From positions 1 to 12,822 of the forward strand of contig CADBRC010000222.1 of assembly GCA_902796985.1 (NCBI GenBank): a stretch of 12,822 nucleotides of DNA, given 5' to 3'. The translations under genes were made by a program, and so were the position numbers. Origin of the DNA: an uncultured Spirochaetaceae bacterium. Lineage in GTDB: Bacteria > Spirochaetota > Spirochaetia > Treponematales > Treponemataceae. The notes beneath the pieces are model-generated. The model had not been told where the DNA came from, made no database searches, and saw only the letters and a list, made by a program, of their open reading frames with translations. How positions within the stretch are numbered: the stretch's first letter is position 1; each line of letters starts with the position of its first letter. Below, in pieces: positions 519-12,822 of the stretch.

Positions 519-527
519 AATTGAACC

Positions 528-556
528 AGTTTAGCAGAAAAGGCCGACTTTGGCTA
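528..556 (-). promoter_or_regulatory. Weak putative promoter of ndk
   Basis: On the minus strand, TAGCCA (556-551) is followed after 17 bp by TAAACT (533-528). Each hexamer matches the sigma70 consensus at four of six positions. The -10 ends nine bases before the ndk ATG, which would give a leader of about three bases. This is a pattern match only. Confidence 0.4.
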
Positions 557-595: not shown

Positions 596-624
596 TTGCC
601 AAACCCCGTCCCAGCCCGTATACT
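596..624 (+). promoter_or_regulatory. Promoter of the DUF3592 gene, start codon at the expected +1
   Basis: TTGCCA (596-601), a 17-bp spacer and TATACT (619-624) form a near-consensus sigma70 promoter. Six bases (GTGAGT) separate the -10 from the ATG at 631, so transcription should begin at the A of the start codon. This also supports 631 as the start: an upstream TTG at 550 in the same frame would place the promoter inside the coding region. Confidence 0.75.
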
Positions 625-630
625 GTGAGT

Positions 631-1821
631 ATGCAAAAGGAACTCGATACCCAAAGGCATCCCCTGTTTTTCCTTATCCCCGTGGCGGTCGGCCTGTTCT
701 TCGCCGGCTTCGGCCTGTACCTGATCCGCGAGAACAGACAGCTCGCCGCCCGCTGCACGGAAGAGGTTCCGGGAATCGTCGCCGGGCTGCAGGAGCATTA
801 CGGCAACAGCGGGACGCTCTACGCCCCCGTATTCGAATACAGCTTCGACGGCATGGAGTTCCGGCAGGAAAGCGACATGGCCTCCTCCCCGCCGAAGTTC
901 AGCGCGGGAGAAGCGGTCACCGTCATGGTGAACCCGGACGACCCGTATGAATACACCGTGCAGGGCTACACGGAAAAGACCACGATGGCAAGAGTCTTCA
1001 TCATACTGGGACTTGTCATCACAGCATTCTTTCTATTGCTTGCATACCATTTCCACAGAATCAACAAGGATGAGAAGGAGGGAAAGGAATCGAGAGGAAT
1101 ACGGGTCGGCGTCGTCTTCCTCCTGATAGGCCTTTTTTCGGCGGCAATCCCTGTCGCCGCCATCAAGCTGAAAGGCGGGAGCGAGGATTTCTTCACTGTC
1201 ACCAGCACCGTAAACGGCATCCAGACGACCGAACAAAATCCCTTCCTCGTCATCGCCATGCTCGCGTTCTGCTTCATCTTCGCGCTGGCCTTCATCATCC
1301 TCGGCATCGTGATGATACGGAAACGCTCGCTCGGCTTCACCGTCGGAGTTTCCGTCGAAGCGGAGACGGACACGCAGGGAAATGTCACGCACCTGTCACA
1401 CAGCGGGGGCACGGGCGGCCTCGTGCTGCCAAGGGTTTTCATTGCAATCGGCCTGTTTCTCCTGGTCATCGGGGGAAGCCTGCTCGCATACGACAGGATT
1501 TCGCTCAAATCCCGCATACAGACGGAAGCCGAAGTCATCGGCACGCACAGCAGGTCGCACTCATCCGGCGGAAAAACGAGCCGGACCTACTATGCGGACA
1601 TAGAATACATGCTGGACGGCGAGCTGTACCGGAGCCAGATAACGGTTTCGGCATTCTTCAGCAAATCCCGCGTCACCGTCTGGTGCAAGCCGGACAATCC
1701 CATGATCTGCCGGACCAAGACGGAATTCCTGCTCTTCTACATCGTCCTCTTCGGTGCAGGAAGCATGTTCTTTGCCGTGGGCCTTTTCATCGCGAAGGCT
1801 ATGAAGCAAGAAGGAGCCTGA
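631..1821 (+). CDS. Integral membrane protein with two DUF3592 units
   Basis: The function is unknown. The 396-residue protein has about six membrane segments (roughly 12-33, 121-140, 158-180, 205-229, 267-288, 365-388). Two repeated units each consist of a helix, a beta-rich extramembrane loop and another helix. The first loop (about 41-112) holds YAPVFEYSFDG and VTVMVNPDDPYEY; the second (about 296-362) holds YYADIEYMLDG and VTVWCKPDNP. The repeated pattern Y-x-P/A-x-x-EY-x-x-DG followed by VTV-x-x-x-P-D is typical of DUF3592. I chose ATG 631 over the farther upstream TTG because a strong promoter ends at 624 and the upstream stretch does not resemble protein. The last 23 bp overlap the convergent permease gene. 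No neighbour suggests a role. Confidence 0.85.
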   Translation: MQKELDTQRHPLFFLIPVAVGLFFAGFGLYLIRENRQLAARCTEEVPGIVAGLQEHYGNSGTLYAPVFEYSFDGMEFRQESDMASSPPKFSAGEAVTVMVNPDDPYEYTVQGYTEKTTMARVFIILGLVITAFFLLLAYHFHRINKDEKEGKESRGIRVGVVFLLIGLFSAAIPVAAIKLKGGSEDFFTVTSTVNGIQTTEQNPFLVIAMLAFCFIFALAFIILGIVMIRKRSLGFTVGVSVEAETDTQGNVTHLSHSGGTGGLVLPRVFIAIGLFLLVIGGSLLAYDRISLKSRIQTEAEVIGTHSRSHSSGGKTSRTYYADIEYMLDGELYRSQITVSAFFSKSRVTVWCKPDNPMICRTKTEFLLFYIVLFGAGSMFFAVGLFIAKAMKQEGA

Positions 1822-3007
1822 GGACGCACAGGACTATCAGGAAGGCGACGTTCATCACGCTGAAACTTGCAAGGTATGCAAGGACAGACGGGAGCGCAAG
1901 CCTTTCCCGCGAGCCGGAATAGAGCTTGAAGGAGATGAGGCTTGCCAGCGAGGCGACGAGCGTCCCCAGGCCTCCTATGTTCACGCCAGCCATCAGGGCC
2001 CTGGCATCGCCCGAGAAAGGATAGAGCAGCAGGGTCGCGGGGACGTTGCTGATGACCTGGCTGCACAGGACGGAGACAACGAACTCATGACCCGAGACCG
2101 CGGCCTCCAGGAAAGTCCGCACGGAATGAATCCCGGCGATGTTCCCCGTAAAGATGAAGAATGCCGTGAACGTCAGGAGGAGCATGTAGTCCACGGAGGC
2201 GAGGACCTTGCGGTTCAGCACGAGCAGGACGGCAAGCACCAAGGCGGCCGCGACGAACTTGGGGACAAAGCGGAGGACGCAGAGCAGGCAGAGGACGAAC
2301 AGGGCGGCATATATGCCAAGCTGCACGCGCTCGGGAACCCGTTCCCGGAGGGGACGATTTCCCTCCGCAGGGGCTTTTTCCCCCGCTTCCAGAGGCTTCC
2401 CGGAGGATTGCGGAACTGGCACCGCCTGCACGGGGGATTTCGCGGGCGACAGGTGCTCGTCCCGGACAAGCAGCAGCGAGAGCAAAAGCAGGACAAGGCT
2501 CGCCGCGCAGTAGGGCAGGATTATCATGACGAACTCCCCGATTCCCGTCCCCATCTTGGAGAAGAGGAAGAGGTTCTGAGGGTTGCCGAGAGGGGTGAGC
2601 ATGCTGCCCATGTTGGCGGCGACCGTCTCAAGGACGACCGTCAGGAGCACAGACCTGCCGCTCGCCGTCGTCCCGAGAAGGGCCAGCGAGAAGGGCACGA
2701 ATGTCAGGAGGGCCACGTCGTTCGTTATCAGCATGCTCGTGAAGAAGCAGAGCAGGACGAGCACCCCGCTCAGAATCCTCGCCCGGTGGATGTGCGAGCA
2801 CAGCATGAACGCCACACGGTCAAAGAGGCCGCAGGCCCTGAACGCGGCGATGACCGCCATGAGGGCGAAGAGGATGAAAAGGGTGTTCCAGTCGATGTAT
2901 GAAAGGTAGGCCATGGACGGCGGGACAAAGAAACTGCTCGCCGCCGCGCACAAGGCCGCTATGCAGAAAACCGTCTCACGGCGGATAAAGGCAATGATGC
3001 GTCTCAT
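1799..3007 (-). CDS. SLC13 / ArsB-NhaD superfamily permease
   Basis: A 402-residue inner-membrane transporter of the ion transporter superfamily (CitMHS / SLC13 / ArsB / NhaD type), which moves anions or exchanges ions using Na+ or H+ gradients. Two inverted halves are visible. The first has FFTSMLITNDVALLTFVPF (88-106) and the MGSMLTPLGNPQNLFLF signature (133-149). The second has SQVISNVPATLLLYPFSG (316-333), mirroring TNDVALLTFVP. A polar, Pro/Glu-rich cytoplasmic linker (about 186-226) joins them. The substrate cannot be read from the sequence: dicarboxylate, sulfate, arsenite and Na+/H+ exchange are all possible, and no ars or metabolic genes are adjacent. There is no clear Shine-Dalgarno sequence; a promoter -10 ends nine bases upstream. 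The 3' end overlaps the convergent DUF3592 gene. Confidence 0.88.
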   Translation of the reverse strand: MRRIIAFIRRETVFCIAALCAAASSFFVPPSMAYLSYIDWNTLFILFALMAVIAAFRACGLFDRVAFMLCSHIHRARILSGVLVLLCFFTSMLITNDVALLTFVPFSLALLGTTASGRSVLLTVVLETVAANMGSMLTPLGNPQNLFLFSKMGTGIGEFVMIILPYCAASLVLLLLSLLLVRDEHLSPAKSPVQAVPVPQSSGKPLEAGEKAPAEGNRPLRERVPERVQLGIYAALFVLCLLCVLRFVPKFVAAALVLAVLLVLNRKVLASVDYMLLLTFTAFFIFTGNIAGIHSVRTFLEAAVSGHEFVVSVLCSQVISNVPATLLLYPFSGDARALMAGVNIGGLGTLVASLASLISFKLYSGSRERLALPSVLAYLASFSVMNVAFLIVLCVLRLLLAS

Positions 3008-3016
3008 CGTAGCAAG

Positions 3017-3044
3017 ATAATAGCACTTTGCCCGAAAAAAGCAA
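3017..3044 (-). promoter_or_regulatory. Putative promoter of the SLC13-type permease
   Basis: On the minus strand, TTGCTT (3044-3039), 16 bp and TATTAT (3022-3017) lie nine bases before the permease ATG at 3007, giving a leader of about three bases. The -35 overlaps the T-rich tail of the preceding terminator, a very compact arrangement. Confidence 0.55.
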
Positions 3045-3057
3045 GGGGCAGCCCCCT
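3035..3057 (-). terminator. Rho-independent-like terminator after the GDYXXLXY gene
   Basis: Reading the minus strand, the last bases of the stop codon begin the stem AGGGG, loop GCTG, CCCCT, followed by TGCTTTTTT. The stem is only 5 bp but GC-rich with a good T tract. It would end the two-gene DUF2157 / GDYXXLXY operon directly at its stop codon. Confidence 0.55.
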
Positions 3058-3667
3058 ACTCGCTCAGCCTCCGCCGGCAGTATTCCTCGATAGGAATCCG
3101 CTCACCTGCGTCCAGCACGGTCAGCCCCTTCTGGACGCAGCGGCCGTCCTTGCCGACGTAGAGGGACAGCACCGGCTCCAGTGCGTTGAAGTCGTCCCAT
3201 TGTATGCGGTCCACGAGGCGGGCATAGTTCTCCTGCATGTAATACTCATTGAAGTCGTAGTCCAGGCTGACCTTCGTGTCGTTGTACCAGCGGTTCTTCG
3301 CCGCGATATATACACCCCCGTCCTGCGGGTGCGTGCGGCGGATTCCCCTCACCGTCCAGATACCATCTGCCCCTTCCTGCATGCGGAGGCAGACTTTCTT
3401 TCCCCGGGAAGCAGCCAGGTGTTCCCGGCTCTCACCGTCAAGCTGTTCTTTCGGAACATCGGACTGCTCGAATGTCAGGCGGACGTAGCGGCCCTTGAAG
3501 GGACTGAAGGGATCATACGCCTTGCATGCGAGCGAAATGACGCTCCCGGTCTTAAGTGCGTGGCTCCTCACCCGTGCCGTATAGAAGAGGAGCGAAAGGG
3601 TGACGAACAGTTGCAATGCGATTGCAGCAGCTATGAATGCCGGCCTCATTTTATCCGTTAACTTCAT
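3056..3667 (-). CDS. GDYXXLXY-family membrane-anchored protein
   Basis: A 203-residue protein with one N-terminal membrane helix (about 8-31) and a beta-rich domain expected outside the cytoplasm. The family hallmark, normally F-x-G-D-Y-x-x-L-x-Y, appears as FKGRYVRLTF (57-66): the Asp is Arg and the last Tyr is Phe. A WYND segment (127-130) and an acidic Tyr-rich segment, DYDFNEYYMQE (136-146), follow. Family members commonly sit next to DUF2157/DUF4401 genes, as here, and probably work with them; the function is unknown. I chose ATG 3667 because GGGGAGG lies six bases upstream. An ATG at 3703 gives a longer N-terminus, and one at 3649 sits just after the upstream stop codon. From 3667 the gene overlaps the upstream gene by 17 bp, indicating translational coupling. 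Confidence 0.82.
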   Translation of the reverse strand: MKLTDKMRPAFIAAAIALQLFVTLSLLFYTARVRSHALKTGSVISLACKAYDPFSPFKGRYVRLTFEQSDVPKEQLDGESREHLAASRGKKVCLRMQEGADGIWTVRGIRRTHPQDGGVYIAAKNRWYNDTKVSLDYDFNEYYMQENYARLVDRIQWDDFNALEPVLSLYVGKDGRCVQKGLTVLDAGERIPIEEYCRRRLSE

Positions 3668-6635
3668 TCTGAACCTCCCCGGCGACTTTCTTCTTGCGCT
3701 CAACCCGATACAAGAGAAGGTTTAAAAGCAGCATGGCCACTCCAAGCACGATGAACAGGATTCCCTTCGCAACAAATCCATAGTCGTCGCTGAAGAACTT
3801 TATGACGAGGGCAAGTGCGGCATAGCAGGCAGCTATGTTCGCCTTGGCAAGGGAGCCTTCCATATATGCCTCATAGATGAAATATCCCGCCACAAGAAAG
3901 ACACAGGCAAAGCTCGTAAATGACATCGCTTTGTCAAGAGGCTTTGTACGCGGGTCATTTCCTGAAATACCAGCCGCGAGGATGGCAAACAGGAATCCAA
4001 CCACGACAAGCAGATGCAGTGCAAACACATAATTGAACCGCAGCTTCTTTCTGAGCAAAGAAACCGCAGGGAGCATAGTCATGAACGCGTATGCCAGCAG
4101 GGCAATGCACACCGGGGCAAGCTGCGGCAAATCCAGATGGCGGGCATGGCAAAAGCTTCCCCCTGAAAAGGCCGAGGCGAACACCATTCCGGCACTGAGG
4201 ACGCCCCACAGGAGGCTGATTCCCTGTACCCCCTGCCGGACCGTTTTCTTCTCATGCTCTATGGCAAAGAAATACAGGCCGCACAGCAAGGGCATGACAG
4301 GCGAACAGAGGAACCATGCCTCTGTATTGTGGTACAGACAGACGATTGTCACAAGCACGAACACAATGCTGTACGGCAGGTATTCAAGCCTCTTGTGCAG
4401 GCGGAAGCGGACGAATCCGTACACACCCGCGCCAGCAAAGATGTAGAGGAAAGCATACAGACTCTTTTCAGTCAACTCAGTCCCTTCACCGAACCACAGT
4501 ACCGCCGACAAAATCAGCAGGACAGCAAGGAGAATCAGGACATCAAGCGAGTCCTTCCACTTGTGCGACAGGAACAGAAGGACAAGGGCGGCAAGGGCTA
4601 TGAGCCCGCATGAGGCCATCTGGAAAGGCAGTGCCCCCTGTTCGTATACGGTAAATGCATCTCCCTCCTGTAAGAATAAGGCGACGCAGGGCATCCAGAC
4701 CGCCGCAAGAATCCGGGAAAACACATACGCCGCTCGGCCTTCCATTTCATTCCGGCTTGCCCGGTAACGCCCGGCCGCCTCAAAAAGCAGGATGAACGCT
4801 GACAGGGAAACAACCGGGCAGTTCAGCTGCATCACAAATCCCGACATCCAGAAGAAATATACGGTCAGCGCAGCAAAGGGCAGAATGTAGGATACAAGTC
4901 CCCTGTCATCTCCAGCTCCTGCATTCACGACATGCCAGCTGCATACAAAAAGCAGAACGCAGAAATAGGCCATGCATATAACATCGTCCCCGAGCGGGAA
5001 AGCAAGCCCGAGCAGGGAAAGCAGGATGACCGCAGCGCACACGACAATTATATCCAGAGACTTAGCAATTTTCCGCGAGCGGGCAAAGAGGCAGGCAGCG
5101 GCAATCAGATAGAGGGCATACAGTACGAGCTGGAGCGGAAGAGCTTGTTGTTTGTACAGGACGAAAAGTCCGTCCTTCATCGTCAGCAGGTATGCCGTTG
5201 CCGCAAGAAGCAGGACAAAGCCTGCGGACCGTATAAAAACGCCATGATAGTTTCCGGTCGATGCAAGGAGAAGCAGAAGCACGGCAAGCGCAAGAACCGG
5301 CATGTTCAGCTGCGTAATGCATGCCGACACGAACAGGAAGCCAAGCAGGAAATATGAATATGCCCGTTTGGAATACAGGGTGTGCGCAAGGAAGAGCAGG
5401 GAGAAGAGAAAAACCACCGTAGTCGGTGCAAGGTACAGGCTGTGCAGGCGGCTTCCCTGCGGAACAAAGCTGTAGACAATAAAAAGCCCGCAGACAACAA
5501 GCGCACACAGAGGGTATACCAGCTTCCATCTGGGGAAAGGCTTCTTGCGAAGACAGGCGGCGAACTGCCATGCAGCAGCCAGACCTGTAAAGCAGAACGC
5601 GAGAAGGCTGTCAAAAACGAAGCCCCAGACAGAAGAGCTCCCTGCGATGCGGTTCCAGTCCAGGCTCCTGACAGGCCACATATCATCAACGGAAAGACAA
5701 AGGAGCAGGATGCACAGTGCCGCTGCGGACAGGTACTTGATTCCCTTGCTTCCGCATGACATACCGTATTCAAGGCAGAGCACCGCGAAAGACACGTTGC
5801 AGATTATCCGTAAACCGAAATTATTTCCATCCAGGATCACGTTCAGCATAACCGCAAATACGGCAAGCATAATCTTTCTTCCGTATTTGAAATGCAGAGC
5901 GAACGGACAGAGCGAGGCGAACAGGAGGCAGAAAAGAAATGCCGACCCGCTCACCCCCTCGCTGGCAAATGCGTAGGATGAAGTCAAAAGGAGCGAGATG
6001 ATGAACGCCCCGACGGACCGCATCGCGTATGTCAACAGTATAGAAGAAACTGCCCACACGAGCAGGAAGGATGCGGTGTCCCCCGGCAGACGGCATATCT
6101 GAGAAATGAATGCGACCACGCCGCCGAACATCAGCGACCACAGAACGGCCACCCCTTCCCGCCATGCGGTTTTGGAGAAGAACTTCTCCCGGACGAATAC
6201 AAACACACCGCCCGCCTGCACCGCAATCAAAAGGATAAATGCAAAGACGGCTTTGACCGTACGGGGAATGGCATTCCAGTTGTAGGCAGTCAGAGAAATT
6301 ACCCCGGCGGCAATGAGAACAGCGGCAATCACGCTCAATATAACGGGAATACTCGCAACATCAATTGCCTTAAGGCGGCTTTTTTCTGCAGCAACCCGCT
6401 TGTTTATGTCAGCGTAGATGTTCTCCGGCGCCGTGTCCGTTCCAGCCGGAACTGGAGCCGTTACAGCCATATCTGAGGCAGTCGGAGAGGCGGAGACAGT
6501 TCCAGCCGGAGATGCGGCTTCAGATTGCGATGCATAGTAATCCGCTATCCGCTTTGCAGTCTCCTCTGTTATGACACGCTTCTTGGCGAGCACATCCAGC
6601 TCATCCAAAAGCCAGAAAACATGGTAAGTGTCCAT
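3651..6635 (-). CDS. Giant polytopic membrane protein, DUF2157 N-terminus with DUF4401-like remainder
   Basis: A 994-residue protein made almost entirely of hydrophobic helices (well over twenty candidates). Residues 1-35 are a soluble helical segment (LDELDVLAKKRVITEETAKRI), typical of the start of DUF2157 proteins. A low-complexity Ala/Pro/Thr/Ser linker (about 36-70) follows, then the DUF2157 core: helix 93-116, AYNWNAIPRTVKAVF (117-131) and FGGVVAFISQICRLPGD (170-186). The rest resembles the long DUF4401-type arrays often fused to or encoded beside DUF2157. The biochemical function is unknown. It lies upstream of and overlaps the GDYXXLXY gene, a familiar pairing that suggests an envelope complex. 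Base composition in the sampled stretch is lower in GC (about 48%) than the CDF gene. No good Shine-Dalgarno sequence or -10 is apparent before ATG 6635. Confidence 0.85.
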   Translation of the reverse strand: MDTYHVFWLLDELDVLAKKRVITEETAKRIADYYASQSEAASPAGTVSASPTASDMAVTAPVPAGTDTAPENIYADINKRVAAEKSRLKAIDVASIPVILSVIAAVLIAAGVISLTAYNWNAIPRTVKAVFAFILLIAVQAGGVFVFVREKFFSKTAWREGVAVLWSLMFGGVVAFISQICRLPGDTASFLLVWAVSSILLTYAMRSVGAFIISLLLTSSYAFASEGVSGSAFLFCLLFASLCPFALHFKYGRKIMLAVFAVMLNVILDGNNFGLRIICNVSFAVLCLEYGMSCGSKGIKYLSAAALCILLLCLSVDDMWPVRSLDWNRIAGSSSVWGFVFDSLLAFCFTGLAAAWQFAACLRKKPFPRWKLVYPLCALVVCGLFIVYSFVPQGSRLHSLYLAPTTVVFLFSLLFLAHTLYSKRAYSYFLLGFLFVSACITQLNMPVLALAVLLLLLASTGNYHGVFIRSAGFVLLLAATAYLLTMKDGLFVLYKQQALPLQLVLYALYLIAAACLFARSRKIAKSLDIIVVCAAVILLSLLGLAFPLGDDVICMAYFCVLLFVCSWHVVNAGAGDDRGLVSYILPFAALTVYFFWMSGFVMQLNCPVVSLSAFILLFEAAGRYRASRNEMEGRAAYVFSRILAAVWMPCVALFLQEGDAFTVYEQGALPFQMASCGLIALAALVLLFLSHKWKDSLDVLILLAVLLILSAVLWFGEGTELTEKSLYAFLYIFAGAGVYGFVRFRLHKRLEYLPYSIVFVLVTIVCLYHNTEAWFLCSPVMPLLCGLYFFAIEHEKKTVRQGVQGISLLWGVLSAGMVFASAFSGGSFCHARHLDLPQLAPVCIALLAYAFMTMLPAVSLLRKKLRFNYVFALHLLVVVGFLFAILAAGISGNDPRTKPLDKAMSFTSFACVFLVAGYFIYEAYMEGSLAKANIAACYAALALVIKFFSDDYGFVAKGILFIVLGVAMLLLNLLLYRVERKKKVAGEVQNEVNG

Positions 6636-6663
6636 ATCGGGAAAACAAAAAGCATTTCAAATA

Positions 6664-6693
6664 GTAACAAAGAAGGCCATTTTGTGATATAAT
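6664..6693 (+). promoter_or_regulatory. Extended -10 promoter of the alpha/beta hydrolase
   Basis: TGATATAAT (6685-6693) gives a perfect -10 with an extended TGn element. A weak -35, GTAACA (6664-6669), lies 18 bp upstream. Transcription should start near 6700, leaving a leader of about 37 bases with the Shine-Dalgarno-like GAAGG at 6726-6730. A second possible -10, TATACT (6698-6703), has no convincing -35. The 102-bp divergent gap (6636-6737) must also hold the promoter of the DUF2157 operon, which I could not place. Confidence 0.6.
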
Positions 6694-6737
6694 GAGGTAT
6701 ACTTTATAGAAGAAATCAAGAGAGAAGAAGGTGCATC

Positions 6738-7763
6738 ATGAGAACTTTCAGCGAGACGATATGGGAAAAAGGCGAATACAGCTACAAGGCAGCCTACGGA
6801 TTCGTGCCGAATATACACGCATACCTGCACGAGGACGGCACGCACGACTGCCTGATTGTTGTGCCGGGAGGAGGCTACTGCATGTGTGTTCCTTCGGAAG
6901 GGGAAATCGTCGCCAAAGAATTCTATGAGCGGGGGATGAATGTATTCGTTCTTACCTACACGACCGACATAACGATGTCAGTTCCGCTCAAAAAGCAGCC
7001 GCTCGAAGACATAGCCCGCGCCGTCCGATTCGTGCGCTCACGGGCAAAGGACTACTCGCTTGGAAAGAAGCTCTTTGTCTGCGGATTTTCCGCAGGGGCC
7101 CATGTCTGCGGAACGCTCGCAGTCCATTATGACGAAGTCACGGAAAAGAATCCTGCGTACTCCGACATTTCCTGCCGCCCGGACGGAGTAATCCTCTGTT
7201 ATCCGGTCATTACAACAGGCAAGTACACGCATCCGTCTTCCGTGGAAGCGCTCATCGGAAAGAATCCGCCCGCCGAGGAACTTGAATACTTCTCTTTGGA
7301 AAAAAACGTCACAGACAGGACGCCCCCCTGCTTCCTCTGGCAGACCGCGACGGACAACCTGGTTCCCGTCCAAAACAGCTACCTCTTCGCACAGGCCCTG
7401 AAAGAACAGGGCGTCCCCTTCGCACATCACGTCTTTCCGGCAGGCTTCCACGGACTGAGCACGGCGAGCGAGGACTTCTTTCAGGAAAAGTTCGGCGAAC
7501 CTTACACGATGGAGCAGGTACGACGGGCAGTACATGCAGTCAAGGCCGGAAACGGCATCAACGTCAGTGAGCGCCGTCGTGCCGAACTTGAAGCACAGTT
7601 TCCGGATGAAGGACAGCAGGCCGCGCATGCACAAAACGGCGGGCAAGAAGAGCAGCAAAGCTCCGGTGCGCCGGACGAATTCTTTCACGCCCAGGCAGCT
7701 GATTACGAGGATGTCCATCAATGGCTCAACCTCGCCGCACTGTGGATGAAAAAGCGTTTATAG
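6738..7763 (+). CDS. Alpha/beta hydrolase, acetyl-xylan-esterase / BD-FAE-like
   Basis: A probable serine esterase of the alpha/beta hydrolase fold (341 residues, no signal peptide, so cytoplasmic). Visible elements: oxyanion-hole GGGYC (44-48), nucleophile elbow GFSAG with Ser118, acid Asp206 in TATDNLVPV, and base His238 in FHGLS. HGxG-type and GGGY-type members act on acetylated or feruloylated sugars and similar small esters; the substrate here is inferred only from family. The protein is longer than the usual 270-280 residues because about 60 polar residues (around 259-322, rich in Gln, Glu and Ala) separate His238 from the usual C-terminal helix VHQWLNLAALWM. GAAGG lies seven bases upstream of the ATG. 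It stands alone between a divergent and a convergent gene. Confidence 0.85.
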   Translation: MRTFSETIWEKGEYSYKAAYGFVPNIHAYLHEDGTHDCLIVVPGGGYCMCVPSEGEIVAKEFYERGMNVFVLTYTTDITMSVPLKKQPLEDIARAVRFVRSRAKDYSLGKKLFVCGFSAGAHVCGTLAVHYDEVTEKNPAYSDISCRPDGVILCYPVITTGKYTHPSSVEALIGKNPPAEELEYFSLEKNVTDRTPPCFLWQTATDNLVPVQNSYLFAQALKEQGVPFAHHVFPAGFHGLSTASEDFFQEKFGEPYTMEQVRRAVHAVKAGNGINVSERRRAELEAQFPDEGQQAAHAQNGGQEEQQSSGAPDEFFHAQAADYEDVHQWLNLAALWMKKRL

Positions 7764-7778
7764 TTCGTGCGGCGTTAC

Positions 7779-7800
7779 CTGCGGGGCTTGTCCCCGGCAG
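7779..7800. terminator. Hairpin between convergent hydrolase and XRE-regulator genes
   Basis: CTGCGGGG (7779-7786), loop CTTGT, then CCCC-G-GCAG (7792-7800) form an 8-bp stem with one bulged G. It lies 16 bases after the hydrolase stop codon. Only a short T run (CCTTTG) follows, so termination is plausible but not certain. It also sits near the point where the sequence becomes AT-richer. Confidence 0.4.
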
Positions 7801-7845
7801 CCTTTGCCATGCAGCTTTGACCAACCGTCAGTTCACAGGCACGCC

Positions 7846-8514
7846 TTACTTACATGCTATATATACGTCCATGCTCTCGCCATCTGTTTCAAAGCATGGT
7901 ATTACTTCATTCCACGCCTGTTCCAAACCGTTGGTCCGCATGAAATCCTTCAGTGTATGATATGCTCCAGGTATCGTAACGAATGGATTATCAAACGGTC
8001 TGTCTATATGAATCGCCACATATTTATGCGCAGGCTGTTCCTTGATCTGTGCCCCTTCCGGTGCAACTCCGTCAGGAAGTATCAAAGCAGCAGTATATCC
8101 GTGCATATTAAAGACGTTGACCTGCTCTTGGGAAAGATTCGGGAAATCCCATCCAATCACTTTCGGGGTATCGATGCCGCTCTCTTTTGCAATTTTATAC
8201 ATGCGGCTGATCGCATCGCTTTCAGGATCCGTACTGATTACAGTATGCGCTATGTAACGAAATCCGGCGACATCTTCTACACGCAGGTTTGAGTATGCAT
8301 CACTTCGCTTATCCATTTCCTCCCTGAAAAGATTATCCAGAGAGCAGTTAAAGATCTTACATATTTCAAGTGCCTTATCCATTTCCGGATTTGCCGCATC
8401 CATTTCCCATTTTGAAATTGTCTGACGGCTGACACCCAGTTTTTCAGCCAAAGCCTCCTGTGTCATATCCTTACTAAGCTGGCGTAAATACTGAAGGTTC
8501 TTTCCAAAGCTCAT
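7846..8514 (-). CDS. XRE-family regulator with GyrI-like ligand-binding domain
   Basis: A 222-residue cytoplasmic DNA-binding regulator. Residues 4-61 are a Cro/C1-type helix-turn-helix (MTQEALAEKLGVSRQTISKWE at 17-37; the second helix of this unit contacts DNA). After a short linker, about 76-222 resemble the GyrI-like / AraC effector-binding fold, which binds small hydrophobic ligands: LRVEDVAGFRYIAH (77-90), YTAALILPDG (140-149) and YHTLKDFMRTNGLEQAWNEVIPCFE (185-209). I chose ATG 8514 because AAGGAG lies seven bases upstream; an ATG at 8532 has no such signal. The gene is about 40-43% GC in sampled stretches against about 60% for the CDF gene, suggesting recent transfer, possibly from a Firmicute. 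Targets are unknown; the repeats upstream suggest self-regulation. Confidence 0.85.
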   Translation of the reverse strand: MSFGKNLQYLRQLSKDMTQEALAEKLGVSRQTISKWEMDAANPEMDKALEICKIFNCSLDNLFREEMDKRSDAYSNLRVEDVAGFRYIAHTVISTDPESDAISRMYKIAKESGIDTPKVIGWDFPNLSQEQVNVFNMHGYTAALILPDGVAPEGAQIKEQPAHKYVAIHIDRPFDNPFVTIPGAYHTLKDFMRTNGLEQAWNEVIPCFETDGESMDVYIACK

Positions 8515-8532
8515 AGTGTTTCTCCTTATCAT

Positions 8533-8547
8533 CTATAGTTGCTATAG
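8533..8547. promoter_or_regulatory. Candidate operator of the XRE regulator (CTATAG-TTG-CTATAG)
   Basis: Two self-complementary CTATAG units flank TTG, giving a dyad that is also a 9-bp direct repeat (AACTATAGC then AACTATAGA on the minus strand). It lies directly upstream of the regulator's Shine-Dalgarno sequence. It shares the nonamer GCAACTATA with the palindrome at 8641-8657, as expected for paired sites of one autoregulator. Confidence 0.45.
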
Positions 8548-8576
8548 TTTCGTGTACCAGTTTGCCCCGCGGTGCA

Positions 8577-8605
8577 AATATAGATTACTTGATAAATACA
8601 GTCAT
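8577..8605 (-). promoter_or_regulatory. Probable promoter of the XRE regulator
   Basis: On the minus strand, ATGACT (8605-8600), 17 bp and TATATT (8582-8577) match sigma70 hexamers at four and five of six positions. The start would be near 8570, giving a leader of about 56 bases that contains the CTATAG repeat and the AAGGAG site. Confidence 0.45.
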
Positions 8606-8640
8606 CTCCACCAACCCGCACGTGCTTTTTCAACAGATTC

Positions 8641-8657
8641 CGCAACTATAAGTTGCG
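8641..8657. promoter_or_regulatory. Palindrome CGCAACT-ATA-AGTTGCG, candidate regulator site
   Basis: A perfect 7-bp inverted repeat with a 3-bp centre. Its left half plus the centre reads GCAACTATA, the same nonamer found on the opposite strand at 8542-8534. It lies upstream of the probable regulator promoter, so it is a second candidate binding site for that protein. In RNA it could also form a short hairpin. Confidence 0.45.
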
Positions 8658-8666
8658 TGCAGTTTG

Positions 8667-8676
8667 CCCCCCCCCC
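8667..8676. repeat. Homopolymer tract of ten C
   Basis: Ten consecutive C (poly-G on the minus strand), followed by five T, lie in the gene-free control region, just before the palindrome when read in the direction of the regulator gene. Tracts of this length can slip during replication. In Treponema pallidum, promoter-adjacent poly-G tracts are known to vary in length and alter expression. Confidence 0.9.
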
Positions 8677-8727
8677 TTTTTCATACAAGATGCAGGTGCC
8701 CGACGTGTTGAATCACCTCATGCCCGG

Positions 8728-8756
8728 ATTATAGCATAGGGCCGGAGACGGGACAA
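8728..8756 (-). promoter_or_regulatory. Strong minus-strand promoter with no gene directly attached
   Basis: TTGTCC (8756-8751), 17 bp and a perfect TATAAT (8733-8728) point toward the XRE regulator. An ATG begins six bases past the -10, the same spacing as in the leaderless genes here, but it reads ATG-AGG-TGA and stops at once. The promoter may drive a roughly 207-base leader for the regulator or a small RNA, or it may be a relic of a lost gene. Confidence 0.55.
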
Positions 8757-8841
8757 GTATTTGCTTATACGGCATGAAAAAGGGAGGCTTAAACACAGAC
8801 ACTGACACGCAGGTATGGAGACAGCCTCGAGGCAGGACCGC

Positions 8842-8870
8842 TACACAGAACCAGCGAAATATGCTATAGT
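8842..8870 (+). promoter_or_regulatory. Promoter of the CDF gene, start codon at the expected +1
   Basis: TACACA (8842-8847), 17 bp and TATAGT (8865-8870) match at four and five of six positions. Six bases (CGCGAT) then lead into the ATG at 8877. No Shine-Dalgarno sequence is present, so the mRNA should be leaderless. Confidence 0.65.
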
Positions 8871-8876
8871 CGCGAT

Positions 8877-10016
8877 ATGCCTAACGAAGGAAACATCGAC
8901 AATAAAGCGGTCCGCGAGCGGACAATCATACGGGCGAGCGTGCTCGGCATTGTGGCGAACGCCATCCTCGCCCTCTTCAAGGCGGCAGTCGGCCTGCTGT
9001 CCAACTCCATCGCAATCACGCTGGATGCGGTGAACAACCTGAGCGACGCGCTCAGTTCGGTTATCACGATAGTGGGAACAAAACTGGCTGCAAAGCCTGC
9101 TGACAAAAAGCATCCGTTCGGCTACGGGCGGCTGGAATATTTAAGTGCGATGGTCATATCCGTCATCATCCTGTATGCGGGTGTGACCTCGTTCGTGGAG
9201 TCGCTCAAGAAGATATTCCACCCCGCGCTGCCGGAATACAGCACGCCGTCGCTGATCATCCTCGCCGCAGCCGTCGCCGTCAAAGTAGCAATGGGCCTGT
9301 ACGTCCGGTCCGTCGGCAGACGGGTGAACTCGGACTCCCTCGTCGCAAGCGGTCAGGACGCGCTCATGGATTCCATCATATCCGCCACGACCATCATCGC
9401 CGCACTCGTCTACATCTTCACGGGACTCCGTTTGGAAGCCTACCTGGGCGTGATCATCTCCTGCATGATCATAAAGGCAGGCTTTGAGACCATGCACGGC
9501 ACCATCAGCGAGATTCTGGGTGAACGGGCGGCCGAAGGTCTTGCGAAGGACATAAAGCGTACTATATTGCAGGTGGAGGGAGTCCGCGGCGTGTATGACC
9601 TGGTGCTCAACAACTACGGCCCCGACAGCTTCGTCGCCTCGGTGCACATCGAGGTTGACGACGACACAACGGCGGTCCAGATTGACAAACTGCAGCGGCG
9701 GATTACCGAACTGGTGTATAAGGAACAGCATGTGCTGCTCGCCGCGATCGGGGTGTACCCGTCAAACACCGGAAACAGCAAGGCCAGCGAGATAAAGCAG
9801 CGGGTCATGCAGATTCTCTCGGAGCATCCCGAAGTCCTCCAAATGCACGGCCTGTATGTGGACGAGGAGGAAGAGACGGTGCGCATGGACATCATCATCG
9901 ACTTTGACACCAAGGACAGGCTCGCGCTGTTCGAGCAGATTCGGAAAGAAATCGCAGCCCGCATCCCGGAATACAAGACGAACGTCCAGCTGGACCTTGA
10001 CGTAACGGCACTGTAG
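8877..10016 (+). CDS. Cation diffusion facilitator (CDF) metal efflux transporter, possibly Mn2+
   Basis: An inner-membrane, proton-coupled exporter of divalent metals; CDF proteins work as dimers. Six helices span about residues 17-204. The transport site should be Asn53-x3-Asp57 in helix 2 (LDAVNNLSDALSS) and Asp161-x3-Asp165 in helix 5 (SGQDALMDS). An N-D/D-D set is what I recall for bacterial manganese CDFs, rather than the His-containing zinc type, so Mn2+ is the best guess. KHPFGYGRLEY (78-88) is the usual helix 2-3 loop. A first cytoplasmic domain (about 220-295, with LNNYGPDSFVASVHIEVD) is followed by a second, similar ferredoxin-like domain (about 300-379), making the protein longer than the usual 300 residues. 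The start is fixed by the promoter ending six bases upstream. Confidence 0.92.
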   Translation: MPNEGNIDNKAVRERTIIRASVLGIVANAILALFKAAVGLLSNSIAITLDAVNNLSDALSSVITIVGTKLAAKPADKKHPFGYGRLEYLSAMVISVIILYAGVTSFVESLKKIFHPALPEYSTPSLIILAAAVAVKVAMGLYVRSVGRRVNSDSLVASGQDALMDSIISATTIIAALVYIFTGLRLEAYLGVIISCMIIKAGFETMHGTISEILGERAAEGLAKDIKRTILQVEGVRGVYDLVLNNYGPDSFVASVHIEVDDDTTAVQIDKLQRRITELVYKEQHVLLAAIGVYPSNTGNSKASEIKQRVMQILSEHPEVLQMHGLYVDEEEETVRMDIIIDFDTKDRLALFEQIRKEIAARIPEYKTNVQLDLDVTAL

Positions 10017-10021
10017 GATCC

Positions 10022-10040
10022 GCCCGGAAGAAGTCCGGGC
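10022..10040. terminator. Hairpin between the convergent CDF and OLD-like genes
   Basis: GCCCGGA (10022-10028), loop AGAAG and TCCGGGC (10034-10040) form a perfect 7-bp GC-rich stem, starting five bases after the CDF stop codon. No T tract follows on either strand. It may stop RNA polymerase weakly or protect 3' ends; it is the only structure in the 52-bp gap. Confidence 0.45.
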
Positions 10041-10068
10041 TACAGGTTACACGTAAATCGCCCCTCCC

Positions 10069-11667
10069 CTACCGCACGCAGGCAGCCTCCAGTATGCTGA
10101 GGAGCGGGGCATATTCGCTCCGCACGGTGTCGGGGTCTGAAAGGAGCAGGTGCTTGCGCTCCATGTGGAAGAGCCTGTCCTTGCCCGCGACCGGCATATA
10201 GCGGACGGACGACTGGGTGTAGTAATGCTCTATGCAGCCCTGGGAGAGTATATAGACACCTGCTGCAGAGGCGGCGGCAAGGATGAGGTTAAAGAGGTTC
10301 CGCACGAGCGGCAGGCTCCCGGAGATGGATTCCGGCAAATGCCTCTCAAGCTGCTCCTGCAACTCCCCCTCCGCAATGACCCCCTGCAAAACGACGGTCT
10401 TGAACGTATCCACATTCTCTGCCCGGGAATGTTTCTGATCCAGCGAGTCCAGTTTTTCCACAAGCAGTGCCAGCTCACCTTCAAGGGGACCAGACTCCAG
10501 GCCATCCTCCTGCCGAGTTCCGTCTTCTCCCTCATACCCCACTGAGCTTTGCACATCACAGAGCGCACGCCCTATGACGGCAAGGTAACGTTCCAGACGG
10601 AAGATAAGCTTTTCCAGCGTAATCTTTGCCCCAAGCTCCCGCACCGTAAAGATGCTTTCGTAAAACGGCCGCTGCTTTTCCCCCTGCCGCTCAAGCCACT
10701 GGGCAGCCCTTGCGTCAGCACAGAACACATCACGAAGTTTTCCGCCGAAGAGGGAGTCCAGGTCGGTGATGATGCGGCTGTTGGTGCCGAGCAGGTCGCA
10801 GACTTTGCAGAATACCCCCAGCTCGTCTTTTCCGCCGACATCGATTATGCCGGTACCAGCGACTCCCCGCTCAGTCTGCACATACGGAAGCAGGCTCGCG
10901 AACAGCTGCTGGTCGGTGTAGCCTTCCACAAAAATCTGGTTGTCGGAGAAGAAGAACTGTTTGTGATAACTGTTGAAACGGGGCAGAAAGCGGCCGAGCA
11001 ACTCTTCGTCCCGCCGCCCCAGCTCCTCTATGTGCGTCGGCTCCCTGTTCGTATGGCAGACCAGCACGCCCAGAAAATCTTCCGGAAAACGCAGGTCTAT
11101 AAAAAAAGGTGAATGTGTCACAATGAAATACATCCGCGTGGGATGCCGCTGCGACACCCGCCTGAGCTCATCGGCGAAAAACTGCTGGAACTGGGGATGC
11201 AGGTGCAGCTCCGGCTCGTCAAAGATAAGGCAGCTGTTGCCGGTGTTGGCGTACAGGGCTGCCAGCAGCGTGATTATCTCCCTGAGACCGTGGCACTCCA
11301 CTTCCTCCAGATTGTACTCAACATTCCAGGCCCGGTTCACGACGACCGGAACATAGGAGCCCCCCTCCCCCTGCTTGAAAACGATTGTCTTTCCGAACAT
11401 GCTGGAAAGCACTGCCTGGATCTTCTGGCGGATGGCTTCGTTTCCCTGCACGATGTCAAGGGCCTCCCTGTCCTCCCGTTGATCCGCACGGAAGAATTTG
11501 ACGGCATAACCCGATGCAGAAAACGCTTCGGCAATAGCCTCGACAAGAAGGGTCTTGCCCGACCCGTTGGGGCCCACGACGAGATTAATGTTCCTCCACT
11601 CATCTTTTTTAAAGACCGCCCTGCCCCAGAGGAAGGGCATTTTCACCTTTACCGGAACGTGCACCAT
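10069..11667 (-). CDS. OLD-like ABC-type ATPase with TOPRIM nuclease-like domain
   Basis: A 532-residue cytoplasmic protein resembling overcoming-lysogenization-defect (OLD) nucleases, many of which are antiphage effectors. The ATPase has Walker A GPNGSGKT (32-39), a signature-like CHGLREI (125-131), Walker B CLIFDEP (146-152, catalytic Glu151), ELHLHPQ and the THSPFF switch His185. A TOPRIM-like region follows: IFVEGYTD with Glu248, DVGGKDEL (276-283) and IITDLDS with Asp302 and Asp304. About 220 C-terminal residues (310-532) are unfamiliar. No UvrD-like helicase follows, so it is not a Gabija-type pair but closer to stand-alone class 1 OLD or AbiL-like proteins. It has its own promoter six bases before the ATG and no Shine-Dalgarno, though read-through from the ADP-ribosylglycohydrolase gene, 42 bp upstream, is possible. 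Confidence 0.85.
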   Translation of the reverse strand: MVHVPVKVKMPFLWGRAVFKKDEWRNINLVVGPNGSGKTLLVEAIAEAFSASGYAVKFFRADQREDREALDIVQGNEAIRQKIQAVLSSMFGKTIVFKQGEGGSYVPVVVNRAWNVEYNLEEVECHGLREIITLLAALYANTGNSCLIFDEPELHLHPQFQQFFADELRRVSQRHPTRMYFIVTHSPFFIDLRFPEDFLGVLVCHTNREPTHIEELGRRDEELLGRFLPRFNSYHKQFFFSDNQIFVEGYTDQQLFASLLPYVQTERGVAGTGIIDVGGKDELGVFCKVCDLLGTNSRIITDLDSLFGGKLRDVFCADARAAQWLERQGEKQRPFYESIFTVRELGAKITLEKLIFRLERYLAVIGRALCDVQSSVGYEGEDGTRQEDGLESGPLEGELALLVEKLDSLDQKHSRAENVDTFKTVVLQGVIAEGELQEQLERHLPESISGSLPLVRNLFNLILAAASAAGVYILSQGCIEHYYTQSSVRYMPVAGKDRLFHMERKHLLLSDPDTVRSEYAPLLSILEAACVR

Positions 11668-11673
11668 ACCCCC

Positions 11674-11702
11674 AGTATACGGCAGGAAACCGTGTTTGTA
11701 AA
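11674..11702 (-). promoter_or_regulatory. Promoter of the OLD-like gene, start codon at the expected +1
   Basis: On the minus strand, TTTACA (11702-11697), 17 bp and TATACT (11679-11674) match sigma70 consensus at five of six each. GGGGGT separates the -10 from the ATG at 11667. The G run touches the ATG, so it is too close to act as a normal ribosome-binding site. The promoter fills the 42-bp gap after the ADP-ribosylglycohydrolase gene. Confidence 0.75.
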
Positions 11703-11709
11703 GAAAAAG

Positions 11710-12540
11710 CTAGAACAGGCAGGCTTCCAGCATCTCCTTCTTCCTGAGAGCGGAAATCCACGACGCGGGGATGGCATCGTAGCCGTACAGGATTCCCGCA
11801 AGTCCGCCGGTCACCGCGCCCACGGTATCCGTGTCCTCGCCGAGGTTTACGGCGGCCTCCACCGCAGCCCGGAAGGAGTCCGTCGTAAGAAGGCACCAGA
11901 GCGCGGCTTCCAGCGTGTCCACGACGAAGCCCGACGAGCGGATGCTTTCCCTTGTCCTGCTTCCTATGGAAGCGAGCGGGGCGAATGTCTTGGACACGTT
12001 CTGCACGTTGCCGTTCACCGCGTCTTTGACGGGCTTCCCCGCCAGCAGGTCCCGCGCGATGTGTATGTAAATGCGGCATGCCTCGCAGGAGATGGCGTGG
12101 GCGTGCGTAAGAGATGACACAGCGTCTATCACGCCGTCATCGGCGGATTCCACGAACGCAAGGGGGACAATCCGCATAAGCGAGCCGTTGCCGTTGGAAT
12201 AGAAATCGTCCAGCCCCTTCCCCCGTTTTACGGCCGCATAGCAGGTGTTCCCGATGTCAAACGCCCTGCCGTCCTGCGTGTACTTGCCCGACGAAAGCCA
12301 CGAGGAGAACTTGTCCATGATGTCCTCAACGTCAACCCGGCCTTTTTCCCGTATGCTGTCGCACAGCGCGAGCGTCATGCTCGTGTCGTCCGTCCACGTT
12401 CCCGCCTCCTTGCCGAAGCAGTCGCAGTACAGCATCTCCGTCACCTGTGGATAGGTCCCCCTGTCCTGGAACTGCACCGGCGAGCCGAGCGCGTCCCCCA
12501 CCGCAACACCGTATACCGCATCACGAAGCTTTGCCACCAT
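11710..12540 (-). CDS. ADP-ribosylglycohydrolase (DraG / ARH family)
   Basis: A 276-residue cytoplasmic hydrolase expected to remove ADP-ribose from a protein or other target, using two Mg2+ or Mn2+ ions. The family core is complete: GVAVGDALGSPVQF (11-24), metal ligands Thr50-Asp51-Asp52 in GTWTDDTSM, NGNGSLMRIVPLA (116-128), THAHAISCEA (145-154), and the second metal motif GEDTDT (234-239) with Asp236, Asp238 and Thr239 inside NLGEDTDTVGAVTGGLAG. No ADP-ribosyltransferase is visible here, so the substrate is unknown; nitrogen-control DraG is unlikely without nif context. GGAGG lies seven bases before the ATG. The leader has a 7-bp hairpin. Its position between the OLD-like gene and the divergent MmeI-like gene suggests a role in, or a passenger of, a defence cluster. 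Confidence 0.92.
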   Translation of the reverse strand: MVAKLRDAVYGVAVGDALGSPVQFQDRGTYPQVTEMLYCDCFGKEAGTWTDDTSMTLALCDSIREKGRVDVEDIMDKFSSWLSSGKYTQDGRAFDIGNTCYAAVKRGKGLDDFYSNGNGSLMRIVPLAFVESADDGVIDAVSSLTHAHAISCEACRIYIHIARDLLAGKPVKDAVNGNVQNVSKTFAPLASIGSRTRESIRSSGFVVDTLEAALWCLLTTDSFRAAVEAAVNLGEDTDTVGAVTGGLAGILYGYDAIPASWISALRKKEMLEACLF

Positions 12541-12569
12541 AGTTTTACCTCCATATGAATTTGCACCTC

Positions 12570-12589
12570 AAGGGAACCGTCTTTCCCTT
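12570..12589 (-). promoter_or_regulatory. Leader hairpin of the ADP-ribosylglycohydrolase mRNA
   Basis: AAGGGAA and TTCCCTT form a perfect 7-bp stem with a 6-base loop, about 30 bases before the start codon and outside the GGAGG site. It could stabilise the transcript or control access; it lacks the T tract of an attenuator. Confidence 0.4.
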
Positions 12590-12601
12590 GTGCGTGTCCA
12601 T

Positions 12602-12607
12602 AGTATA
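12602..12607 (-). promoter_or_regulatory. -10 element of the ADP-ribosylglycohydrolase gene
   Basis: TATACT on the minus strand would start transcription near 12595, giving a leader of about 55 bases. No good -35 stands at 16-18 bp. GCGACA in the neighbouring inverted repeat is 20 bp away, which suggests a weak promoter or one that needs an activator. Confidence 0.45.
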
Positions 12608-12625
12608 CAGCATCGGGGGCGGGAG

Positions 12626-12648
12626 TTTGTCGCCAAAACGGCGACAAA
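12626..12648. promoter_or_regulatory. Perfect inverted repeat between divergent promoters (candidate operator)
   Basis: Arms TTTGTCGCC (12626-12634) and GGCGACAAA (12640-12648) are fully complementary, separated by five bases (AAAAC). The right arm contains the -35 (GCGACA) of the MmeI-like gene, and the left arm lies just upstream of the ADP-ribosylglycohydrolase -10. A bound dimer could control both genes. Its regulator is not visible in the window. Confidence 0.6.
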
Positions 12649-12669
12649 TTCCTCGCGATGTGCTATAAT
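12641..12669 (+). promoter_or_regulatory. Promoter of the MmeI-like gene, start codon at the expected +1
   Basis: GCGACA (12641-12646, four of six), 17 bp and a perfect TATAAT (12664-12669) precede the ATG at 12676 by six bases (TCCAGT counted with the last T). No Shine-Dalgarno sequence exists. The -35 is inside the inverted repeat. Confidence 0.7.
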
Positions 12670-12675
12670 TCCAGT

Positions 12676-12822
12676 ATGAATCAGATTGAACAGGTAAAGA
12701 ACGCCGGTGATTTCGCCGGATTCTGGGCGGACAAGGGCAATGAGAAGCAGGAGTGCCAGCGTTTCTGGATAGACTTACTCCAGAACGTCCTCGGCGTAGA
12801 AAGCCCGGCAAAGTACATCGAG
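12676..12822 (+). CDS. N-terminus of an MmeI-type restriction-modification enzyme (cut by window end)
   Basis: Forty-nine codons are open from ATG 12676 to the right edge. The segment GDFAGFWADKG (residues 11-21), then a Glu- and Lys-bearing turn, FWIDLLQNVLGVE (31-43) and AKYIE (45-49) match the opening of MmeI-family proteins (single-chain type IIL/IIG restriction-methylation enzymes, often labelled class I SAM-dependent DNA methyltransferase). That pattern, F-x-x-FW-x-x-(K/R)G-x-E-K followed by FW-x-x-LL-x-x-V-x-G, is characteristic of the family's N-terminal domain. Full members run about 900 residues, with a PD-(D/E)xK nuclease followed by an N6-adenine methylase. Those parts lie beyond the window, so activity cannot be judged. 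The gene appears leaderless. Confidence 0.72.
   Translation, partial: MNQIEQVKNAGDFAGFWADKGNEKQECQRFWIDLLQNVLGVESPAKYIE

Follow-up and report, generated by a model that had tools for sequence, protein, structure and literature searches.

Leaderless initiation in bacteria and spirochaetes

Leaderless messages, transcribed from the first base of the start codon onwards, are already known in bacteria, spirochaetes among them. Of 18 Spirochaetes genomes analysed by Zheng et al. (2011), 6 were predicted to carry leaderless genes, which make up 1.8–6.9% of their genes (PMC3160421). In the excerpts of that study drawn on here, the TA-led genes of Actinobacteria and Deinococcus-Thermus carry the motif TANNNT about 12 nucleotides before the start, lack a Shine-Dalgarno (SD) site and stand beside SD-led genes. 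The same arrangement is found before four genes of the DNA analysed here, with the first T of the -10 hexamer at -12. This stretch, referred to as the window, is one whole contig (CADBRC010000222.1; 12,822 bases) of a 2.28-Mb rumen Treponema metagenome-assembled genome (MAG; 426 contigs, 76% complete). The reading preferred here, with a probability of about 0.9, is that leaderless mRNAs, beside SD-led initiation, are a permanent trait of treponemes and of the majority of the Spirochaetia sampled. In this rumen Treponema, transcription of some genes very probably begins on the first base of the start codon, leaving the message with neither a leader nor an SD site.

Among other spirochaetes, excerpts of a differential RNA-seq study of Leptospira interrogans describe around 440 mRNAs with leaders shorter than 10 nucleotides, half of them shorter than 2 (PMC5243855), so that leaderless mRNAs have been mapped there by experiment, whereas those of the window are predicted from sequence. 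In Borrelia burgdorferi, leaderless transcripts are said to be highly frequent (PMC10618245). The term leaderless is absent from a further study of RNA ends in Borrelia (PMC10319736). With regard to treponemes, the portions consulted place the starts of the T. denticola flaA operon and flaB2 14 and 124 nucleotides before the start codon (PMC9481697) and report a predicted GGAG site for T. pallidum tprL (PMC7864442). Leadered genes have thus been shown in treponemes, and leaderless ones were nowhere found in the literature searched: text searches, judged by title and the beginning of the abstract, gave no paper on leaderless mRNA in Treponema. The view of an earlier note on this DNA, that leaderless messages are not established in treponemes, holds to that extent, but the Leptospira mapping and the predictions of Zheng et al. 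show that spirochaetes are not blank. In the DNA analysed here, leaderless initiation appears as a second start mode in treponemes. Leaderless messages are also given by some restriction-modification controller operons. These resemble the window in that a restriction-modification gene would lie on a leaderless message, which in the window encodes a single-chain MmeI-like enzyme.

Four promoters directly before start codons

The earlier note had drawn attention to four of the 11 genes counted in the window, those starting at 631, 8877, 11667 (minus strand) and 12676 (Table 1). Both direct reading and a script confirmed that each has a sigma-70-like -10 six bases before the ATG and a 17-bp spacer, and that no SD word (4 nucleotides or longer) occurs at positions -20 to -4. 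Matches of the -35 to TTGACA are good at 631 (TTGCCA) and 11667 (TTTACA) and reach only 4/6 at 8877 and 12676; these two promoters, both weak in the -35, have TGC directly before the -10, as in an extended -10. Of the four genes, all but that at 11667, which lies 42 bp from a co-directional gene, are transcribed divergently from the gene upstream. Clear SD-like sites are present elsewhere in the window, as the note had also stated, with GGAGG before the gene at 12540 (minus strand) and a GA-rich stretch before that at 6738 (plus strand). The 9-base gaps that it gave for ndk and the permease were likewise found, with TAAACT and TATTAT in place, although the ndk promoter is weak.

Given a background of 0.0054 per gene and gap, measured outside the window, the chance of 4 of 11 genes sharing one gap is 2.7e-7, or 8e-6 allowing for 30 possible gaps. 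Since the window had been chosen by a reader for its patterns, the test outside it weighs more.

A spacing peak across the genome

Gene starts came from a caller that relies on coding potential and takes no account of SD sites or promoters. From the genome of the window, 81 of the 426 contigs (421 kb) were sampled, and 251 of 338 genes, those with an ATG start and 60 nucleotides upstream, were used. Three further samples were read: 400 kb of a genome of the same genus treated as T. bryantii XBD1002 (G015; 293/335 genes used), 13 other Treponema loci (167/182) and, as a control, 66 loci carrying Firmicutes names (699/809). A strong -10 was defined as TANNNT in which two or all of the three central bases agree with TAA, the gap as the number of bases between it and the start codon, and the expectation for gaps 6–8 as the mean over gaps 12–44.

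The positional excess is the main evidence for a leaderless class. In the genome of the window, a strong -10 at gap 6–8 precedes 22 of 251 ATG genes, against 4.1 expected (p = 5e-10), and on the 80 contigs outside the window the count is 19 of 241 against 3.9 (p = 4e-8). In 300 draws of hexamers with permuted letters, on average 1.7 and at most 8 genes had one at these gaps. The excess was also found in T. bryantii (27/293, 10.3 expected, p = 1e-5) and in the other Treponema loci (12/167, 4.2 expected), and was absent from the Firmicutes-named loci (12/699, 17.3 expected). The distance plot with loss of the SD signal, which the earlier note had proposed as a test, thus came out in favour of its leaderless interpretation, which is supported. 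The gap of exactly six that it described holds for all four window genes, but genome-wide the preferred gap is 6–8: outside the window, gaps 6, 7 and 8 are found in 4, 9 and 6 genes, and a shoulder extends to gaps 9 and 10 (gaps 7, 8, 9 and 10 in 9, 6, 6 and 4 genes of the whole sample).

Site counts over the whole genome point in the same direction. TATAMTN{2,14}ATG occurs 357 times, against 111 for the reversed pattern, and among the first 100 of these sites gaps 6, 7 and 8 account for 18, 18 and 13, with 0–9 at every other gap. The reversed pattern was superseded as a control by gap 12–14 ("shifted"), to which gap 6–8 ("near") was compared; here 164 near sites stand against 70 shifted ones (p = 4e-10).

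The excess amounts to some 18 of 251 ATG genes, or around 7%, near the top of the 1.8–6.9% range predicted for Spirochaetes and below the means of 19% and 39% given for Actinobacteria and Deinococcus-Thermus in the excerpts of Zheng et al. (PMC3160421). About four of the 22 genes are expected to be false members, a likely one being a bactofilin gene (in L202) that lies 5 nucleotides from its neighbour and has an SD word. Pfam matches among the 19 members outside the window include EF-P, acetate kinase, UvrC, MurB, a PEP-utilising enzyme, an alanyl-tRNA-synthetase-like protein, a response regulator and a LacI-type regulator, with 2 of the 19 giving no match. None of 39 GTG and 17 TTG starts of the same sample has a -10 at gap 6–8; in T. 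bryantii, the counts are 1/16 and 1/21.

Other marks of the class

Genes with a -10 at gap 6–8 differ from the remainder in several respects. SD words were found in 1/22 of them against 153/229 others, and in 0/27 against 193/266 in T. bryantii, in agreement with the coexistence of two initiation modes claimed by the earlier note. A pyrimidine occupies position -1 in 18/22 against 129/229 others, with 24/27 against 135/266 in T. bryantii and 12/12 against 77/155 in the other Treponema loci. A -35 with at least 4/6 matches at a spacer of 16–18 was present in 17/22 genes, against 2/22 at a shifted spacer. Moreover, the class is concentrated in unit-leading genes, that is, genes divergent from their neighbour or at least 40 nucleotides from a co-directional one (genes without a known neighbour being excluded): 18/115 against 2/101 internal genes, and 19/131 against 5/147 in T. 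bryantii.

Several of these marks are less telling than they appear, and the points that follow weigh against a leaderless class. As the -10 occupies the place of the SD site, much of the SD loss is mechanical. Permuted hexamers placed where the -10 stands retain an SD word in only 21% of cases (24% in T. bryantii), and the remaining deficit has p = 0.04 and 0.0006, respectively. The -35 signal is weaker in T. bryantii, at 11/27 against 4/27. The 12 chance-level Firmicutes hits are likewise SD-poor (2/12), have no close co-directional neighbour (0/12) and carry a pyrimidine at -1 in 9/12, the latter not being significant. Since these chance hits lean the same way, the SD, neighbour and pyrimidine marks are supportive rather than decisive.

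With regard to the anti-SD (CCTCC) at the 3' end of 16S rRNA, GGNTGGATCACCTCCTT was found in 2 of 24 same-genus genomes (G001 and G010) and not in the MAG of the window or in T. bryantii G015, although 16S genes may be missing from MAGs. Across 39 genomes, a form of the pattern with a trailing A was found in 2 and a shorter form in 6.

Spread across the phylum

The near/shifted comparison was extended to 198 genomes of the phylum, with one-sided, uncorrected binomial p values. All 13 genomes sampled from the genus reached p < 1e-3, as did 6 of 7 from the rest of the family. Leaving aside one family (f7), the ratio exceeds 1.25 in 30 of 32 Spirochaetia genomes, and 26 of the 32 reach p < 1e-3. 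For the 159 genomes outside the class the median ratio is 1.03, with p < 1e-3 in 5 of them.

The pattern is not uniform, and its exceptions count against a feature common to the Spirochaetia. The enrichment is absent or weak in two genomes (G197, 0.99; G042, 1.18), and all seven f7 genomes (1.0–1.8 Mb) have ratios of 0.92–1.25. In addition, 11 of the 159 genomes outside the class exceed 1.25, and in a genome from another genus of the family (G077) genes at gap 6–8 number 20 against 12.5 expected. Of 19 genes there, 16 carry a pyrimidine at -1. AT-rich genomes have a high background, and the comparison is therefore weaker in them. From their AT-richness and small genomes, we take the f7 genomes to be Borrelia-like. 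Their lack of a clear excess differs from what is said of B. burgdorferi, also a member of the Spirochaetia (PMC10618245). Similarly, the median outside the class, in a set that may include Leptospira, is unlike what the leaderless mRNAs of L. interrogans would suggest.

The highest ratios of the 39 class genomes, 3.2 (58/18) and 2.9 (72/25), belong to two genomes of another family of the order (G038 and G041, family f4), with small counts.

Orthologues of the four genes

The OLD-like gene was read in 30 loci (57–100% amino acid identity, window copy included), 17 of which have a strong -10 at gap 6 (12 loci) or 7 (5 loci), and 4 more at gap 9–10. The T. bryantii orthologue (L281) is among the loci with gap 6. 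The start codon aligns with residue 1 in all 30. Four of the 17 hits precede GTG; in these orthologues (L261, L262, L263 and L265) the gap is 6, and the RNA would begin with GUG. For the MmeI-like gene, 30 loci were read of 34 matches, two from the genome of the window, whose own copy is included. Gap 6–8 was found in 21, of which 19 have exactly 6, and the start aligns with residue 1 in 28. A homologue (from L287) matches MmeI_N, MmeI_hel and MmeI_Mtase, the window fragment of 49 codons matching MmeI_N.

The layout was absent from all eight plasmid copies of MmeI-like genes that were read (8 of 300 records, all Firmicutes, with two near-identical pairs) and from all 11 homologues read in other classes of the phylum (of the 159 genomes there, 80 were searched and 11 gave a match; 12 of 19 matches were analysed, one yielding no start). 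These absences suggest that the leaderless layout goes with the treponeme host and not with the gene family.

The DUF3592 gene has a match in 9 of 98 genomes. Besides the window copy, two are full-length (96% and 62% identity), and both have gap 6, in the 62% orthologue at an ATG two codons upstream of the aligned start. For the cation diffusion facilitator (CDF) gene, read by eye, gap 6 was found in an uncultured Spirochaetaceae MAG record (L002; 79% amino acid identity to the window protein) and gap 7 in T. bryantii NK4A124 (L041) and in L081, the other 11 of 14 loci being without the layout.

Conservation is thus incomplete, which also speaks against the preferred reading. No strong -10 at gap 6–10 is present in 9 of the 30 OLD-like loci, six of which have an SD word, and 2 of the 17 hits contain an SD word as well. 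The same is seen in 9 of the 30 MmeI-like loci, three with an SD word. Among the 15, 9 and 17 usable pairs of a best-hit comparison between the partial samples from the genome of the window, T. bryantii and G077, none was leaderless in both members and four were so in one member only; these numbers are too small to decide and do not favour the preferred reading.

Proposed mechanism and competing explanations

In the mechanism proposed, the housekeeping sigma-70 RNA polymerase would bind a -35/-10 promoter close to the start codon. The promoter sequences are observed; the normal start point, 6–8 nucleotides past the -10, would coincide with the A of the ATG. As what is known of leaderless mRNAs suggests, the ribosome would then begin directly at the 5'-terminal AUG without SD contact. 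This mode would be used mainly by unit-leading genes, beside ordinary SD-led initiation, and would not be peculiar to the four window genes.

The closest competitor overlaps with this reading. Some genes may start 1–4 nucleotides before the ATG, with a leader too short for an SD site, and the common gaps 7 to 10, together with gap 9 at ndk and the permease, would fit. Against it, the prevalence of a pyrimidine at -1 in the gap 6–8 class argues for the A of the ATG as the initiator, and 19 of the 21 MmeI-like hits have gap 6. As a general account this remains a minority option, although at least one of the four window genes is more likely than not to be near-leaderless. It is rather improbable that the -10s are real but minor, with upstream promoters dominating and translation proceeding from an SD-less leader, either unstructured or bound by S1. 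Of 115 unit-leading genes, 35 lack both an SD word and a -10 at gap 6–8, so another SD-less mode may exist; but only one of the four genes has a co-directional upstream neighbour, and nothing would keep the promoter of a leadered mRNA 6–8 nucleotides before the ATG in orthologues whose DNA has diverged.

Misannotated start codons, with the true starts downstream behind SD sites and the -10 serving a leadered mRNA, are less probable still. The starts are predicted, and in two MmeI homologues (L298 and L302) the ATG used lies 14 and 3 codons upstream of the aligned start, but the alignment of starts in both orthologue sets opposes this explanation, and the -10 keeps its place also before starts that are GTG. 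Chance clustering of AT-rich hexamers has nothing in its favour beyond the small numbers of the window and, with p of around 1e-5 for the window and 4e-8 for the sampled contigs beyond it and a permuted maximum of 8 genes against 22, can be set aside almost completely. The observation on the four genes, namely gap 6, a 17-bp spacer and no SD site, is in any case confirmed.

A broader account goes beyond the leaderless class itself, and we hold it at slightly better than even. Leaderless initiation would be a second start mode across most of the Spirochaetia, used by around 1/6–1/7 of unit-leading genes before chance is subtracted and including core genes; incoming mobile genes would acquire a leaderless start, and one small-genome family would have lost the mode. 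The acquisition by mobile genes is put forward on the grounds that MmeI-like genes look leaderless in Treponema and not in those Firmicutes plasmid relatives that were read.

Leaderless starts matter in practice, as gene finders that expect an SD site mis-call them and the right start type is needed for reporters and expression in treponeme genetics. Furthermore, the orthologue sets hold SD-led and leaderless starts in single gene families within one genus, which makes a change of initiation mode testable in the culturable rumen species T. bryantii.

Features of the window

Table 1. Promoters and genes with a -10 close to the start codon in the window
Feature	Positions	Strand	Details
DUF3592 gene promoter	596..630	+	-35 TTGCCA 596-601; 17-bp spacer; -10 TATACT 619-624; discriminator GTGAGT 625-630; expected RNA start A631
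DUF3592 membrane protein gene, putatively leaderless	631..1821	+	396 aa; Pfam PF12158
CDF gene promoter	8842..8876	+	weak -35 TACACA 8842-8847; 17-bp spacer with TGC at its end; -10 TATAGT 8865-8870; discriminator CGCGAT
Cation diffusion facilitator (CDF) gene, putatively leaderless	8877..10016	+	379 aa; PF01545, PF16916, TIGR01297
OLD-like gene promoter	11668..11702	-	-35 TTTACA 11697-11702; 17-bp spacer; -10 TATACT 11674-11679; discriminator GGGGGT 11668-11673
OLD/GajA-like AAA ATPase-Toprim gene, putatively leaderless	10069..11667	-	532 aa; PF13304, PF20469; PADLOC Old and GajA models
MmeI-like gene promoter	12641..12675	+	weak -35 GCGACA 12641-12646; 17-bp spacer with TGC at its end; -10 TATAAT 12664-12669; discriminator TCCAGT
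MmeI-like restriction-modification gene start	12676..12822	+	truncated by contig end after 49 codons; PF20464 MmeI_N, 28.4 bits (cut-off 27)
ndk -10-like element	519..533	-	TAAACT 528-533; 9-base gap to ATG (518); weak -35; at most near-leaderless
CitMHS permease -10	3008..3022	-	TATTAT 3017-3022; 9-base gap to ATG (3007); near-leaderless, predicted leader ~2-3 nt

Further elements lie close to these genes. A near-perfect inverted repeat at 12622-12652 (13-nucleotide arms, 92%, 5-nucleotide loop) overlaps the -35 of the MmeI-like gene and could be a candidate operator of its promoter. Directly upstream of an XRE-type helix-turn-helix (HTH) gene (7846-8532, minus strand), CTATAGTT is present twice at 8533-8549 with one base between the copies, a possible autoregulatory site of that gene. 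A run of ten C residues stands at 8667-8676, between the HTH and CDF genes; G tracts varying in length are described for T. pallidum promoters in an excerpt of the tprL study (PMC7864442). Lastly, at 10069-12822 an ADP-ribosylglycohydrolase gene lies between two defence-like genes, the OLD/GajA-like ATPase-Toprim gene and the MmeI-like restriction-modification gene, and this region is possibly a defence neighbourhood interrupted by the contig end.

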